7,926 nt of DNA from Nitrospinae bacterium RIFCSPLOWO2_12_FULL_45_22 (GCA_001803565.1 MHDQ01000138.1:1-7926); one strand, 5' to 3'; counted from the first letter of the stretch, positions 1,597-7,926 are shown. Translations and numbers: made by a program. Notes: a model not told the origin generated them from the letters alone.

Positions 1597-2007
1597 CTAT
1601 CCCTTCTGAGCTTTCAGCTCAATGATAAAGCCGCTGAAGGCGGCCAGGCAATCTACCAGAATATCTCGTAACTGGAATGAACGGAATGGGACCGTGGACT
1701 GATAGAACTCATCCATCACACCATAGAAGCAGGTAAAGATCAGGGTAGTAATCAGGCCTACCTGCCTCATCTTATTACCCTGCTCTTGATGGATAAATAC
1801 CCCTTTAGCCAGTTGGAAGAGGACAAAATAGAGGAAGAAATGGGCCGGGTATTGGACAGAATCACCGAATACCTGCTTCAGGAAAGAAAATTTCTTTACA
1901 ATAAGAGCAGCCGAGGGTGTAGATAGGTAGAAGATAAATACCATCCACCCCATAGTGGCCAGTAAGGATATCACGGTGCGATAGCGTAGCCATAAAAGCT
2001 TATCCAC
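1597..2007 (-). CDS. VanZ family membrane protein
   Basis: This is a 136-aa VanZ-like protein. The family is named after the teicoplanin-resistance accessory gene vanZ; most members have no known function. It has a hydrophobic N-terminal segment (about 11-30, ending in IFYLST), a second around PAHFFLYFVLFQLA (54-67), a third around LITTLIFTCFYGVMDEFYQ (85-103), the family signature DEFYQ..VPFRSFQLRDILVD (99-119) and a last hydrophobic stretch (120-130). The frame opens at a GTG (2005-2007) and a stop lies four codons upstream; no clear ribosome site is visible, so a start some codons later is possible. It lies 332 bp downstream of the RiPP precursor on the same strand. Whether it belongs to that operon is unknown, because a weak terminator may lie between. 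Confidence 0.85.
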   Translation of the reverse strand: MDKLLWLRYRTVISLLATMGWMVFIFYLSTPSAALIVKKFSFLKQVFGDSVQYPAHFFLYFVLFQLAKGVFIHQEQGNKMRQVGLITTLIFTCFYGVMDEFYQSTVPFRSFQLRDILVDCLAAFSGFIIELKAQKG

Positions 2008-2339: not shown

Positions 2340-2480
2340 TTAGCCACCAGATAACCAGTTATTAACTGCATCGATAATAAAGCTACCTACGTCATCGCCG
2401 CTACATGCACATGTACCGGCTAGTGAAGTAGCTTCCAGCCGCTCAGACTTAATCTCTGGCTTGACATATTTTCGTTTCAT
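2340..2480 (-). CDS. Putative RiPP precursor peptide, 46 aa
   Basis: This is a small gene directly after the radical SAM gene. The ATG (2478-2480) follows a strong AGGAGGTGA ribosome site that contains the stop codon of the radical SAM gene, and only 4 nt separate the two, so translation is very likely coupled. The peptide begins MKRKYVKPEIKSERLEA. Tyr5, Pro8 and Ile10 form Y-x2-P-x-I, the motif used in lasso and related leaders for binding a PqqD-like RRE. A small-residue stretch SLAG (19-22) then leads into GTCACSGDDVG (22-32) and a hydrophobic-to-polar tail ending NNWLSGG. Cys24 and Cys26 are the only cysteines. Acidic leader and Gly/Cys/Ser-rich core are what a modified peptide should look like. 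Product class, cleavage site and activity cannot be read from the sequence. Little else would explain a coding frame with this ribosome site and context. Confidence 0.82.
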   Translation of the reverse strand: MKRKYVKPEIKSERLEATSLAGTCACSGDDVGSFIIDAVNNWLSGG

Positions 2481-2484
2481 ATCT

Positions 2485-3543
2485 TCACCTCCTCTCAGGC
2501 GGGATGGCCCCCTGGCATAGCCAGTGGGCTTGCCGGCAGTATCCTGCCGAACACTGGAAGATATCTCCCTTTTCCAGATAATTTACCCCCAGGCAGGGGG
2601 TACAAAAAGGCAAGATATCACACTGAACACATTGCGAAAGATTCGATAAGCTAGCAGCCCTTATTTGCTTTAATACCTCTGGAGGAGCTGTCTGCCAGAT
2701 ATCCCTAAAGCTATTTTTTCGCAGGCTCCCCAGACCGCTGGGAATCAGCACGCAGGGATATACCAATCCCTGGGGAGAGATACTGCATAAGGATCGGCCG
2801 GCATTGCAAAAATCCTTTTTGCTAAGTTGAGATTCCGACAAACTTTTGCTGCCTGCCTGCCCAAGGCTCAATCTCTTACCAGTTGCCCATTGAGACAGGT
2901 ACCTCTTCCAATCCTCTTCAGAAATCTGGTACTGTAGCGGATTCCGGGAGCCATCTACCTTTGGAATAACCATAGGACCGATGCTAAACCTTGCCCCTAA
3001 TCTCCGGGCTATATCCTTTAGCCCCTCATATTCATGGATATTCTCTCTCATCATGGTGCTCTTAATAACAGTAGGTATCTGCTCCCTTTGCAGGAGACCG
3101 AGGGCATTTATCGTTCTGATGTAAGAACCAGATACCCCGGTAATCGCATCATGAACTTGGGGGCTGGCCCCATAGAGGCTAATCTCCACCTGGGTAATCC
3201 CTATCTCTTTCAGGCATTGAACTATGGACGGGGTTATAAAAGTTCCGTTGGTAAGGAGGATAACGACGAAATGCTGCCCGGCAAACCGGATTATCTCTGA
3301 TAAATCCTCCCGGAGGAATATCTCTCCCCCGGACAAGGCCAGACTGACCGTTCCCATCTCCTGGAGTTGTTTCAGGATATCGATAATTTCCGGATAGGTG
3401 AGCTCATCCCCCTCTTCCTTATCTACGACATAGCAATGGCAGCAATCCAGATTACAGCGGTGAGTCAACTCGAAATGGACCCCCCAGGGTAAACAGAACT
3501 CCCTATATTTATTCTGTATAGCAGTAATCAAGCTAGCCGGCAT
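2485..3543 (-). CDS. Radical SAM/SPASM peptide-modifying enzyme
   Basis: This 352-aa protein is probably the maturase that modifies the downstream precursor peptide. The radical SAM cluster motif CNLDCCHC places the [4Fe-4S] ligands at Cys30, Cys34 and Cys37, preceded by the typical FELTHRC. The SAM-binding GGE is at 72-74 and the strand LLTNGT at 96-101. The C-terminal third is a SPASM-type auxiliary cluster domain: GLVYPC (Gly259, Cys264), then C305-x2-C308-x5-C314-x2-C317, with further cysteines at 331, 336 and 343 and earlier ones at 246 and 253. SPASM enzymes include PqqE and sactipeptide or thioether maturases, so C-C or Cys-thioether cross-links are plausible. The ribosome site before the ATG at 3541-3543 is weak (GTGAGATA). 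The gene lies 156 bp after the HprK-like gene, and a repeat element occupies most of that gap. Confidence 0.93.
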   Translation of the reverse strand: MPASLITAIQNKYREFCLPWGVHFELTHRCNLDCCHCYVVDKEEGDELTYPEIIDILKQLQEMGTVSLALSGGEIFLREDLSEIIRFAGQHFVVILLTNGTFITPSIVQCLKEIGITQVEISLYGASPQVHDAITGVSGSYIRTINALGLLQREQIPTVIKSTMMRENIHEYEGLKDIARRLGARFSIGPMVIPKVDGSRNPLQYQISEEDWKRYLSQWATGKRLSLGQAGSKSLSESQLSKKDFCNAGRSLCSISPQGLVYPCVLIPSGLGSLRKNSFRDIWQTAPPEVLKQIRAASLSNLSQCVQCDILPFCTPCLGVNYLEKGDIFQCSAGYCRQAHWLCQGAIPPERR

Positions 3544-3585
3544 ATTTTTATCTCACAAGTGGGGCTATTTTCTGTCAGAAAAGAC

Positions 3586-3661
3586 CGTAACTCAACCCTT
3601 CAGGGTTGATCAGTCAGAGTCTGCCCTGGGCTTGTCGAAGGGGCTAAAGCCCTGAGTTACG
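3586..3661. repeat. Small palindromic repeat element, copy A
   Basis: This 76-bp element is bounded by the inverted repeat CGTAACTCA (3586-3594) / TGAGTTACG (3653-3661). Inside it are the hairpins CAACCCT-TC-AGGGTTG (3593-3608) and GGGCT-AA-AGCCC (about 3642-3653). It lies between the HprK-like and radical SAM genes. A related copy is at 4872-4922. It looks like a non-autonomous REP/MITE-like repeat. Confidence 0.7.
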
Positions 3662-3699
3662 CCTACTTCATGACAAAGAATACCCCCACCCTATTTTTC

Positions 3700-4530
3700 C
3701 TACAAGCTTTCGATGAGGTGCCAGAAGCTATTGTCCTGCGTAAAATGCAGCTCATAGCAAGGTATTTTATTGACCAGCCCGGAGACGAGCCTTAATACCT
3801 CTGAGATAGCTTCTATTCGATTATCAGAGAAATTAGCGGGATAAAAGAGAAGGGGAAAGAGTTTTATACCTGCATCTATACCCTTAATCCTCTGGACATA
3901 AGAGATATTATCCTTTCTAAGGATAAATATCCCCCTCAGCTTCTTAGTCAAATCAGTAGAGGCATAAAAATCGCCCTTTACAGGTGTCCCTTTCAGCCAG
4001 TATTCCCCGTTGATGTTACTAATAAGGACCAGTTCGTCGTTAATCGCAATACCTTCTGGATGAGACAATCTGGATATTGTTGTCTTGCCACTGCCCGATG
4101 GGCCGGCAAAGACATAACCTTTATCATCTCTGATAATACCGGCTGCATGTAAAAAAACACTATCCTCCTGCCCCTTTTTTAAGATATAAAAGGCGCTTAT
4201 CAGCAGAGACAAAAGGTAAGCAGGGTGGAGGGGGTTAGCTGCCTCTTCAAATAACACCTTGATTTTCGTTCCCCCACGGCGGAAATATCCCCTAACCCCT
4301 CTATCCCCATAGCCGATTTCTTGCCACTCGGGGTCGCTCAGGATTTCTGCACTCTTGACACGTCCGGCTGGCAAAAATCCTATCTCAAGGCTGATCTGGG
4401 GCTTATGATTATGATCAGGTAAGATAAAAGAGTTTCGTAGACTCTTGATAAAGGGTTCATTAATGGATATTATCGAAAAAGACACCCCACCAAGCTCCAG
4501 GTCAATCCGATTATTCTCTTCCCCAGGCAT
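3700..4530 (-). CDS. HPr kinase-like protein of a RiPP cluster
   Basis: This 276-aa protein resembles the HprK-like proteins found in RiPP and lasso-peptide clusters rather than true HPr kinase: it lacks the HprK N-terminal regulatory domain. The lead-in strand FLHAAGI (126-132) is followed by the P-loop GPSGSGKTT (143-151), an NDE acidic motif (164-166) and a C-terminal PCYELHFTQDNSFWHLI typical of this group. Known relatives in lasso clusters phosphorylate a serine at the C-terminus of the precursor; here the precursor has Ser44 near its C-terminus, so a similar step is possible but not shown. A good ribosome site (CAGGAGATAATAT-ATG) supports the start. It is separated from the PqqD-like gene by 388 bp of repeats and may need its own promoter. 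Confidence 0.85.
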   Translation of the reverse strand: MPGEENNRIDLELGGVSFSIISINEPFIKSLRNSFILPDHNHKPQISLEIGFLPAGRVKSAEILSDPEWQEIGYGDRGVRGYFRRGGTKIKVLFEEAANPLHPAYLLSLLISAFYILKKGQEDSVFLHAAGIIRDDKGYVFAGPSGSGKTTISRLSHPEGIAINDELVLISNINGEYWLKGTPVKGDFYASTDLTKKLRGIFILRKDNISYVQRIKGIDAGIKLFPLLFYPANFSDNRIEAISEVLRLVSGLVNKIPCYELHFTQDNSFWHLIESL

Positions 4531-4918
4531 ATATTATCTCCTGGTAACAGTTAACAGGGTTCAGGAAAAGACTTTAAATTAGTAACAGGTATAGGCAGAG
4601 GCATAGGTAGAGAATTTCCTGTACCTCTACCTCTTCTTATTTGGAGATTGCGCTAAGGGTTAAATGCCCGTGAAGGTCTTTGAAGAAAAGCCTTTCTGGC
4701 CTGTCTGCCAAGGCACAGGCAGGAATGTCATTCCGAGCGAAGCGAGGAATCTTGTATTTTAACGGTATAGAAGATTTCTCCCTTTGGTCGAAATGACAAC
4801 TTTATTTGGTCGTTTACTATAAGTTATATGCCTTTATACATCCAGATTAAGTTACCTGCTTTTTATACATCCGTAACTCAGGGCTTTAGCCCTGACAGGT
4901 CAACCCTAAAAGGTCGAG
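4531..4918. other. Repeat-filled gap inside the RiPP operon
   Basis: No gene is visible on either strand. From left to right it holds an imperfect inverted repeat rich in AGGTAG/CTACCT (about 4596-4640), a CTGCC-AA-GGCAG-like hairpin (about 4700-4720), a REP-like palindrome (4726-4798), two direct TTTATACATCC words (about 4833 and 4861) and copy B of the GTAACTCA repeat (4872-4922). It looks like a landing site for small mobile repeats. Confidence 0.6.
4726..4798. repeat. REP-like palindromic element
   Basis: Left arm TGTCATTCCGAGCGAAGCGA... (4726-4753) and right arm (4771-4798) ending GGTCGAAATGACA form a 73-bp imperfect inverted repeat bounded by TGTCATT/AATGACA. The same two arm types recur at 7366-7393 and 7653-7680. 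To my knowledge similar GTCATTCCGAGCGAAGCGAG repeats are widespread in bacterial genomes. Confidence 0.75.
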
Positions 4919-4922
4919 TCAC
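4872..4922. repeat. Small palindromic repeat element, copy B
   Basis: CGTAACTCA with GGGCT-TT-AGCCC (4872-4892) at one end and the imperfect partner CGAGTCAC (4915-4922) at the other make a shorter relative of the 3586-3661 element, in the opposite orientation. Its outer end overlaps the last codon and stop of the PqqD-like gene, so the repeat supplies that stop codon. Confidence 0.6.
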
Positions 4923-5194
4923 TCCCTTTTTACGTTCTCCTTAAACTCAACCACCCCTTTTTCAGAAAGGATACGGATAAATTCAGCGGTATCCTGCCGG
5001 GCTGTGCTCTCTTCTACCTCAAATTCCTGGCATATCTTCAAGATAATCTCTTCTACCGTCATAGCGCCATCCGCGCAGTTCCAGATTTCAGTCCCTACTT
5101 CATTTAAGACATGGAACCATTCCCCATCTTCGCCTATGATAATGGTTTCACCGTCTACTACTCTCCAGATACATTTCGATCGTTTTATATACAT
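4919..5194 (-). CDS. PqqD family RiPP recognition element protein
   Basis: This 91-aa stand-alone PqqD-like protein should bind the leader of the precursor and present it to the radical SAM enzyme. The family pattern is clear: N-terminal strands (CIWRVVDGETIIIG, 8-21; EWFHVLNEVGTEIW, 25-38), then ADGAMTVEEIILKICQEFEVE (41-61) and a last helix-strand ending EFIRILSEKGVVE. A GGGAGG ribosome site lies about 10 nt before the ATG. It follows the S26-like protease gene by 24 nt and surely shares its transcript. The C-terminal KENVKRE tail ends in a stop inside a palindromic repeat, so the original C-terminus may have been changed by that insertion; the domain itself is whole. Confidence 0.9.
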   Translation of the reverse strand: MYIKRSKCIWRVVDGETIIIGEDGEWFHVLNEVGTEIWNCADGAMTVEEIILKICQEFEVEESTARQDTAEFIRILSEKGVVEFKENVKRE

Positions 5195-5218
5195 AAAATC
5201 TTCTTCCTCCCTTTTACT

Positions 5219-5827
5219 CTAATGTCCTGGCCAGGCAGCCCTTACTAATATAGCTACCATGATCCTATGCGCCGATAAGACAGGTTTCTTTGCGGCCCGA
5301 TATAGCCATTTAAAAAATACTAATTCATACTGCCCATTAAGCCTTTGCTGGAAGTATCCCAGCCTTCTTCCAAGCAGATAGGCGCCATAAAAATAGACAG
5401 CAAATAGACGATTAATCAGTCCCCCCCAACCCCTATCTATCCTTAGAAGGTTATATTCCCCTCTTTTAATAGCCACCACCTTGCCCAGTACACTACTGGC
5501 CGGGATCTGCACCGCTATACTTCCTCGATCGCCTTTCTGCCAGAAAAAGAGCCCCTCATCGTCCCTATATTTGCCGATCACCCGATGGGTAATGAAGGTG
5601 CCGTCTTCTGAGAAGACAATAATATCACCGAATCTTATCTCTCCTGCAGGAACCCGTTGGGCCAGCACCCGATCGTTTACCTCAATCAGGGGCATCATGC
5701 TGCCCGAGGTGATACGGAACCAGGCCTTCCCATTTCGGGCAAAATACTCTGCCCAGAGTTCCTTAATCATCTCTTTAGGCAGAGAAAACCCGTTCTTTTT
5801 CTCACCAATGTTCAGCATAAACTCCAT
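5219..5827 (-). CDS. S26 signal peptidase-like protease of the RiPP operon
   Basis: This is a serine protease of the signal peptidase I (S24/S26) group. The nucleophile is Ser45 in SGSMMP (43-48, counting from the TTG at 5831-5833), followed by DRVLAQRVPAGEIRFGDIIVF, then THRVIGKY with His83, and FFWQKGD (96-102). The Ser/His arrangement resembles the archaeal/SipW type, which uses histidine in place of lysine. The usual N-terminal membrane anchor is missing; instead there is a hydrophobic segment near LINRLFAVYFYGAYLL in a C-terminal extension of about 75 residues. I chose the ATG at 5825-5827; the ATG at 5816-5818 is equally possible. It is the first gene of the operon and may process the modified peptide. 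PqqD-like, HprK-like and S26-like genes often occur together, which supports a shared pathway. Confidence 0.8.
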   Translation of the reverse strand: MEFMLNIGEKKNGFSLPKEMIKELWAEYFARNGKAWFRITSGSMMPLIEVNDRVLAQRVPAGEIRFGDIIVFSEDGTFITHRVIGKYRDDEGLFFWQKGDRGSIAVQIPASSVLGKVVAIKRGEYNLLRIDRGWGGLINRLFAVYFYGAYLLGRRLGYFQQRLNGQYELVFFKWLYRAAKKPVLSAHRIMVAILVRAAWPGH

Positions 5828-5857
5828 CCGCAAATTAACAATTGACCCTTTTTCCCT

Positions 5858-5886
5858 TTGACAGGCACAACTATATTATATATTCT
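5858..5886 (+). promoter_or_regulatory. Promoter of antitoxin copy 1
   Basis: TTGACA (5858-5863), a 17-nt spacer and TATTCT (5881-5886). The -10 box lies in the middle of the operator dyad, as expected for an autorepressed TA operon. Confidence 0.55.
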
Positions 5887-5900
5887 AAATACATAGTATA
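5872..5900. promoter_or_regulatory. Operator dyad, decayed copy
   Basis: The right arm AAATACATAGTATA (5887-5900) is the same as in copy 2, but the left arm has three changes (5876, 5880, 5885) that break symmetry. It overlaps the antitoxin promoter and a TATAAT on the minus strand (5880-5875) that could be the -10 box of the RiPP operon, about 48 nt before the protease start codon. Confidence 0.6.
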
Positions 5901-5921
5901 ACCCATTTAGGGAGGTGCATT

Positions 5922-6190
5922 ATGGATACGGTTCGTTAAATATTACTCTGCCAAAAGAACTGGCCCGGCAGTTAGATAAGTTGGTTGGATCCAGAAAAAA
6001 GAGTCGTTTCATCACCGAAACCCTGACCCAAAGGATAAAGCAAATTCAGCATGAAGAACTTCAGAAACTTTTGGAAGAAGGCTATCGTGCCACCAAACAA
6101 GAGGGCCTTGCTATAGCAAAAGAGTTTGAACCCATAAAAATCTTCGGAAGATCTATCCCTTTGAGGTATTCTTACCTATTTCTCCTTTAA
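5922..6190 (+). pseudogene. Broken ribbon-helix-helix (CopG/MazE-like) antitoxin gene
   Basis: The native start is the ATG at 5922, 7 nt after the strong GGGAGG site. After MDTVR a one-base deletion (one G near 5934-5936, relative to copy 2) brings a TAA at 5937-5939. Past the deletion the other frame encodes NITLPKELARQLDKLV..., a typical ribbon-helix-helix DNA-binding start, then a helical stretch (ETLTQRIKQIQHEELQKLLEEGYRATKQEGLAIAKEFE) typical of MazE-type antitoxins. From about 6130 the sequence no longer looks like the family and overlaps the 3' end of the convergent toxin gene, so the C-terminus is probably replaced and no MazF-like partner follows. The frame could be opened at GTG 5915, but that codon lies inside the ribosome site itself, so use is unlikely. 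Confidence 0.75.
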
Positions 6191-7719: not shown

Positions 7720-7776
7720 TTAAAAATAAGCGAGAGACCCGTTCTTTTTCTCACAAATGTTCAGCATAAACTCCAT
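7720..7776 (-). pseudogene. Duplicated 5' fragment of the S26-like protease gene
   Basis: The ATG at 7774-7776 opens MEFMLNICEKKNG, the same start as the intact protease except for one Gly-to-Cys change, then runs into unrelated sequence and stops after 18 codons. It is a by-product of the segment duplication. Confidence 0.8.
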
Positions 7777-7806
7777 CCGCAAATTAACAATTGACCCTTT
7801 TTCCCT

Positions 7807-7835
7807 TTGACAGGCACAACTATACTATGTATTTT
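7807..7835 (+). promoter_or_regulatory. Promoter of antitoxin copy 2
   Basis: TTGACA (7807-7812), a 17-nt spacer and TATTTT (7830-7835), with the -10 box in the centre of the operator. Confidence 0.6.
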
Positions 7836-7849
7836 AAATACATAGTATA
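7821..7849. promoter_or_regulatory. Perfect 29-bp palindromic operator
   Basis: TATACTATGTATTT (7821-7834), a central T (7835) and AAATACATAGTATA (7836-7849) form a perfect inverted repeat. It covers the -10 region of the antitoxin gene 22 bp before its ATG, which is the usual place for autorepression by a ribbon-helix-helix antitoxin. Confidence 0.8.
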
Positions 7850-7870
7850 ACCCATTTAGGGAGGTGCATT

Positions 7871-7926
7871 ATGGATACGGTTCGGTTAAATATTGCTCTG
7901 CCAAAGGAACTGGCCCGGCAGTTAGA
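7871..7926 (+). CDS. Ribbon-helix-helix antitoxin, 5' part only
   Basis: The ATG at 7871 follows a GGGAGG site by 7 nt and opens MDTVRLNIALPKELARQLD before the window ends. The strand VRLNIALP and helix KELARQLD are the start of a CopG/MazE-type ribbon-helix-helix domain that would bind the 29-bp operator just upstream. Unlike the copy at 5922 it keeps the G that holds the frame. A toxin gene, MazF-like by analogy, may follow outside the window. Confidence 0.75.
   Translation, partial: MDTVRLNIALPKELARQL

Follow-up and report, generated by a model that had tools for sequence, protein, structure and literature searches.

The window analysed here, one entire contig of 7,926 bases from the Nitrospinae bacterium RIFCSPLOWO2_12_FULL_45_22, carries on its minus strand a cassette of five genes that resembles a pathway for a ribosomally synthesised and post-translationally modified peptide (RiPP). 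Open reading frame (ORF) calling gives the order S26-like protease, PqqD-like RiPP recognition element (RRE), HprK-like kinase, radical S-adenosylmethionine (SAM)/SPASM enzyme and a peptide of 46 amino acids, just as a sequence-only reading had described it; the end at 5827 in that reading is an in-frame ATG of the S26-like gene, whose start is a TTG (5833). The four enzyme and RRE genes (HprK-like, PqqD-like, SPASM radical SAM and S26) are co-located inside about 5 kb. The genome itself (3.67 Mb in 321 contigs) is fragmented and its lineage is poorly sampled. The features of the cassette are the following.

2340..2480, minus strand: precursor peptide MKRKYVKPEIKSERLEATSLAGTCACSGDDVGSFIIDAVNNWLSGG, 46 amino acids (hidden Markov model of the leader, E=9.2e-6)
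2451..2474, minus strand: leader motif R-K-Y-V-K-P-E-I, putative RRE-binding site (family consensus KKKPYQKPEITKVKLVPEEAVLAGCK; role of YxxPxL in lasso leaders, PMC10368454)
2486..2493, minus strand: perfect Shine-Dalgarno sequence AGGAGGTG of the peptide gene, overlapping the stop codon of the radical SAM gene
2485..3543, minus strand: radical SAM/SPASM maturase, 352 amino acids (PF04055, E=1e-20; PF13186 (SPASM), E=1.8e-7)
3700..4530, minus strand: predicted HprK-like peptide kinase, 276 amino acids (conserved residues, modelled fold, ScmC match)
4919..5194, minus strand: discrete PqqD-like RRE, 91 amino acids (PF05402, E=6.1e-17, positions 1-67 of 67)
5219..5833, minus strand: S26 protease of the archaeal/SipW type (Ser-His) with no transmembrane segment, 204 amino acids, putative leader peptidase (TIGR02228, catalytic motifs)

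The PqqD-like protein and the radical SAM/SPASM enzyme, which has the CxxxCxxC motif, are clear by Pfam, while kinase and protease are weakly supported by family models and were for this reason both checked by their residues, the kinase also by its fold. The best named match of the kinase is ScmC, with 32.3 bits at a cut-off of 125. Its H128, P-loop GPSGSGKT and D165 correspond to the conserved His, GxSGxGKT and Asp common to its relatives, and the motif matches the one listed for lasso-cluster kinases (PMC10368454) with the exception of the second Asp, which is Glu. A structure model (pLDDT, the predicted local distance difference test, of 83) has phosphoenolpyruvate carboxykinases as its best solved matches over the whole chain (Z 15, root mean square deviation 4.7, 242 aligned); the modelled structure thus confirms the HPrK/PEPCK fold, the fold class of HPr kinase, and both this fold and the catalytic His, P-loop Lys and Asp of HPrK/PEPCK proteins are present. 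The S26-like protein scores 51.2 bits with TIGR02228 (archaeal-type signal peptidase), slightly below the cut-off of 51.85, and its Pfam score is below the gathering cut-off. In an alignment with 12 relatives the motifs S45-M-x-P, G69-D70, H83-R84 and K100-G101-D102 are invariant, and the catalytic residues S45, H83 and D102 are all present. A hydrophobic N-terminal segment or anchor before Ser45 is absent, and, judged from its sequence, the protein is a putative cytoplasmic leader protease. The catalytic motifs attributed earlier to each enzyme are therefore all found.

The peptide gene begins 4 nucleotides past the stop codon of the radical SAM gene, which bears out the proposed coupling of the two. 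To place the peptide in a family, a profile was made from leaders only (up to the first Cys), with the last eight residues masked in every candidate and with the window peptide kept out of the seeds, and was used in four search rounds over 18,187 small ORFs. It returned 107 matches at E<0.01, 102 of them distinct, with the leader K..Y.KP.I; the window peptide, with this leader followed by Cys, was recovered even though it was not a seed. Conserved-leader peptides thus accompany homologous radical SAM genes elsewhere, as a conserved precursor should. The cores are variable, with about 15-35 residues and 2-4 Cys, and 99 of the 102 distinct peptides end in Ser (89) or Thr (10), compared with about 15% of the other small ORFs that served as controls (10.3% Ser, 4.6% Thr). 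The three exceptions are the window peptide itself (..SGG), L217 (..KSL) and L081 (..ACN). A C-terminal Ser of the window peptide hidden by another start or frame was rejected: a TAA follows directly after ..SGG and the other overlying frame has no leader. No second peptide with the leader motif was found in the window. Peptides adjoining two more window-like radical SAM genes, in genomes G287 (L257) and G149 (L259), likewise end in Ser; there is no kinase in the surrounding stretch examined at either locus, and HprK-like matches lie on other contigs of both genomes. Together with a third peptide (L126:8786-9034, L257:8126-8365, L259:6550-6789) they are longer and rich in Gly and Ser, with the window-like leader Y.KPSI.SE..FETSAL.C and Ser at the end, and the genomes of all three have their kinase and radical SAM matches on separate contigs.

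The gene set is not confined to the window. The same genome has two more cassettes, in the order peptide-HprK-S26-PqqD-radical SAM on contig C258 and PqqD-radical SAM-peptide-HprK-S26-nucleotidyltransferase on contig C54; a scan of genome contigs with the window kinase alone as query gave no match. Matches to a kinase profile occur in 80 of 386 genomes, which included just one other of the window organism's order. Among the neighbours within 5 kb of 35 strong HprK-like matches from the genome-wide profile search are PqqD (28/35), radical SAM (27/35) and S26 proteins (21/35), so that the gene set does recur. A scan of named genomes yielded 80 loci, from Aminicenantes, Desulfobacterota/Deltaproteobacteria, Nitrospirota, Omnitrophota, KSB1, Acidobacteriota, Chloroflexota, Methylomirabilis, WOR-3, Aerophobetes, Desantisbacteria, Fermentibacteria and others; this set was obtained by the motif of the canonical kinase and is biased towards the canonical clade. 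Relatives of the cassette are spread over more than 12 phyla, most of them uncultured or little studied, and their commonest order is PqqD-radical SAM-peptide-HprK-S26-PF14907 nucleotidyltransferase. Some cassettes (flanks of L041, L170, L080 and others) adjoin the exopolysaccharide genes Poly_export, Wzz and Glycos_transf_4 (2-4 of 105 flanking ORFs each), so these cassettes may be linked to cell-surface polysaccharide.

In quick trees with long branches, the window radical SAM enzyme groups with L065/L122, L066/L138, L067, L071/L127 and L074 (support 89, fork open), and is assigned to clade II with L065/L122/L066/L067; the window kinase groups with L065/L122 (82), then with L066, L129 and L126. 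The window is a divergent member of the family, with both proteins in the minority clade. The two further cassettes of this genome belong to the large canonical clade, L041 being nearest to a Desulfobacterales sequence in the radical SAM tree. The agreement of the two trees on the place of the window argues that the genes travelled together and that the cassette was inherited as one unit.

An HprK-like kinase, a discrete RRE, a YxxP leader and a nucleotidyltransferase are all known from lasso peptide clusters (PMC9266682, PMC10368454), and the cassette could on these grounds be a lasso cluster with an accessory radical SAM enzyme. In paeninodin-type clusters, the precursor's C-terminal Ser is extremely conserved and receives a phosphate from a PadeK-type HprK-like kinase, and in pseudomycoidin the nucleotidyltransferase PsmN is required for the hexoses on the phospho-Ser (PMC9266682). 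In the Bradymonas cluster, the RRE speeds up the kinase, and the conserved YxxPxL motif of the leader was examined for its part in phosphorylation and in removal of the leader; this kinase modifies Ser3 of the core and the precursor itself ends in Asp (PMC10368454). The phosphorylated lasso peptides (paeninodin, pseudomycoidin, Bradymonas BsfA) thus share with the cassette the kinase with the same motif, the discrete PqqD-like RRE and the YxxP leader, and with the wider family the C-terminal Ser of most precursors and, in many relatives, the nucleotidyltransferase. However, the cassette has a radical SAM/SPASM enzyme in place of the cyclase and an S26 protease in place of the B2 peptidase. The PF05402 match does provide the discrete PqqD-like RRE (B1) of a lasso cluster; the lasso-specific PqqD chaperone model NF033536, its closest named model, gives 44.5 bits at a cut-off of 80. 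A lasso cyclase (Asn_synthase, PF00733) is absent from the window and, where present in the genomes searched, is at the nearest about 45 kb from a cassette; a PF13471 (B2) peptidase is found neither in the window nor on the cassette contigs of genome G000, and neither enzyme lies near S26 cassettes in the 26-31 genomes searched. The identity as a lasso cluster, already denied by the sequence-only reading, was rejected on these absences and we give it almost no credence. Instead, because the C-terminal Ser/Thr of the family coincides with the phosphate site of paeninodin-type HprK-like kinases, the cassette looks, by analogy, like a radical SAM counterpart of the phosphorylated lasso peptides. 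Three loci in three genomes (L261, L262, L263) that had been considered as lasso controls were rejected as such: they are another PqqD-HprK-radical SAM variant, with a lasso B2-like PF13471 peptidase replacing S26 and no obvious Y.KP peptide nearby.

The nearest named relative is the SynChlorMet cassette (NCBIfam TIGR04248-TIGR04251: ScmD, ScmC, ScmE, ScmF), which has PqqD-like and HprK-like proteins with SPASM radical SAM enzymes and, in the candidate peptides of SynChlorMet-like loci, a Y.KP-type leader. The window could accordingly be a divergent cassette of this same pathway that has lost one radical SAM gene: among named models the kinase matches ScmC best, and the radical SAM enzyme and the PqqD-like protein have ScmE and ScmD, respectively, among their better matches; in L227 a canonical cassette stands beside a true ScmC locus; and the Y.KP leader is common to the two kinds of cassette. 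However, the window proteins fall below every cut-off by a wide margin (ScmC 32.3 of 125, ScmD 28 of 100, ScmE 120.6 of 400, ScmF 82.8 of 400), and SynChlorMet has two radical SAM enzymes, the window just one; the candidate precursors of two-radical-SAM loci have greater length and Cys-Gly repeats, and most of them do not end in Ser/Thr. Membership was rejected on the cut-offs and we regard a common pathway as improbable; the adjacency in L227 indicates that the two systems are neighbours in kind but distinct. The candidate SynChlorMet precursors lie at L072:3753-3992, L073:6373-6666, L075:4302-4529, L076:11957-12271 and L227:9861-10076 (two-radical-SAM loci, L227 being the true ScmC locus), with Y..P-type leaders and long Cys-Gly repeat cores, mostly without C-terminal Ser/Thr. 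SynChlorMet is not mentioned in the limited collection of literature searched. Two other named systems are further away: sactipeptides and ranthipeptides (AlbA, StsB, PapB) share the SPASM radical SAM enzyme and the Cys-bearing core beside the leader, but the window has a separate RRE, a kinase and an S26 protease and stays far below the cut-offs of the curated models (AlbA 93 of 850, StsB 99 of 625, StsA peptide 16.5 of 42); the HPr-rel-A system (TIGR04352/TIGR04353) likewise combines an HprK-related kinase with a PqqD-like partner, but the window proteins score 26.6 bits (kinase, cut-off 200) and 16.6 bits (PqqD, cut-off 35).

Mycofactocin and PqqE models are among the best matches of the radical SAM enzyme. 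With the PqqD-like partner, the PF14907 nucleotidyltransferase of many relatives and the three cassettes in one genome, this is compatible with a small redox cofactor or signal made from the peptide, as in pyrroloquinoline quinone or mycofactocin, phosphorylation and nucleotidylation then building a cofactor-like product. The cores of PqqA and mycofactocin are short and fixed, though, unlike the variable cores of the cassette peptides, and no dehydrogenase family is prominent among the flanking ORFs; a cofactor is distinctly unlikely.

We consider it likely that the window holds a cassette for a RiPP, of a kind both widespread and apparently undescribed, whose enzymes probably trim, cross-link and phosphorylate a small peptide. 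This reading follows from the recurrence of the cassettes, in different orders in the same genome and in unrelated genomes, from the C-terminal Ser/Thr of the leader-profile peptides as against the controls, from the agreement of the two trees, from the HPrK/PEPCK fold with its catalytic residues and the invariant S26 residues, and from two precedents, the C-terminal Ser phosphorylation with PsmN (PMC9266682) and the RRE with YxxPxL (PMC10368454). The genes and their motifs, the leader, the co-occurrence and the C-terminal Ser/Thr rule are established; from these we infer leader binding, the type of cross-link, phosphorylation, the order of steps and the product as follows. The PqqD-like RRE would bind the K..Y.KP.I leader and present the precursor to the radical SAM/SPASM enzyme and the kinase. 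The former would cross-link the Cys-containing core, and the latter would phosphorylate a hydroxyl side chain, across the family the C-terminal Ser/Thr. The cytoplasmic Ser-His S26 protease would then remove the leader, and in many relatives the PF14907 nucleotidyltransferase would decorate the phosphate further. The claim that the combination lies outside familiar RiPP classes is supported, with two corrections: no description of radical SAM, HprK, S26 and PqqD with such a precursor was found in the limited literature collection, but the combination occurs widely, not in the window alone, and NCBIfam already names a close relative. The family's C-terminal Ser/Thr rule, and its breach by the window peptide, were beyond the reach of a sequence-only reading.

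Several points weigh against this reading. The binomial probability of the C-terminal Ser/Thr excess (1e-77) ignores relatedness, though the peptides span many phyla. SynChlorMet-like relatives with two radical SAM enzymes have HprK, yet their peptides mostly lack a C-terminal Ser/Thr, so the kinase need not imply that site. The window peptide ends ..NWLSGG and its phosphosite is thus uncertain; since a Bradymonas kinase of such kind uses another Ser, it may be an internal Ser, for example in WLSGG. The nucleotidyltransferase gene is absent from the window; the contig stops 2.3 kb past the peptide gene and the genome is fragmented, so that this enzyme may be encoded beyond the contig, or contig C54 may provide it. 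Finally, the genes are loosely packed and two gaps are filled with repeats:

4531..4918, minus strand: intergenic gap between PqqD and HprK (388 nucleotides) with interspersed genomic repeats, outside the machine; parts of 4685-4822 occur dozens of times across the genome
3544..3699, minus strand: intergenic gap between HprK and radical SAM (156 nucleotides) with an interspersed repeat, outside the machine; 3559-3694 recurs at C148, C66 and C258

Because of these gaps, a single transcript can only be presumed. The same repeats, together with the missing Ser/Thr, the missing nucleotidyltransferase and a PqqD-HprK order unlike that of the window's clade, would fit a formerly working cassette in decay, its phosphosite lost and its genes split by mobile repeats. 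However, all five frames are open, the catalytic residues are intact, and the strong Shine-Dalgarno sequence and the coupling of radical SAM and peptide genes are retained; we think decay unlikely.

The remainder of the window holds, further downstream than the peptide gene, a gene for a VanZ-like membrane protein (1597-2007, minus strand), which was not seen to accompany the cassettes consistently, and a HicA/HicB-like toxin-antitoxin pair at 978-1453 on the plus strand (PF07927, PF15919). Positions 5789-5970 and 7741-7926 are a near-identical duplication that comprises the S26 gene's 5' end and the first part of a divergent ribbon-helix-helix-like antitoxin gene (ATGGATACGGTTCG...); a one-base difference in the first copy stops the ATG frame at once, and the second copy is interrupted by the contig end. 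A phage origin was rejected, as peptide, kinase and protease have no PHROGs match.

Taken further, and with somewhat better than even confidence, the cassettes may constitute a separate RiPP class of more than 12 mostly uncultured phyla, with a radical SAM cross-link near a conserved Cys and, on the same peptide, a C-terminal Ser/Thr phosphate that is nucleotidylated or glycosylated in many members, and with a cytoplasmic signal-peptidase-like leader protease; the window would be a divergent branch in which the phosphosite has moved. Such cassettes would join two branches of peptide natural-product biochemistry that are usually met separately: radical SAM cross-linking, and the modification of the peptide tail by kinase and nucleotidyltransferase, which has until now been a feature of lasso peptides. 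For the related SynChlorMet cassette, candidate precursors are gained as well, and the conserved precursors with their sharp C-terminal Ser/Thr feature make it directly testable what the many orphan HprK-like and S26-like genes do.

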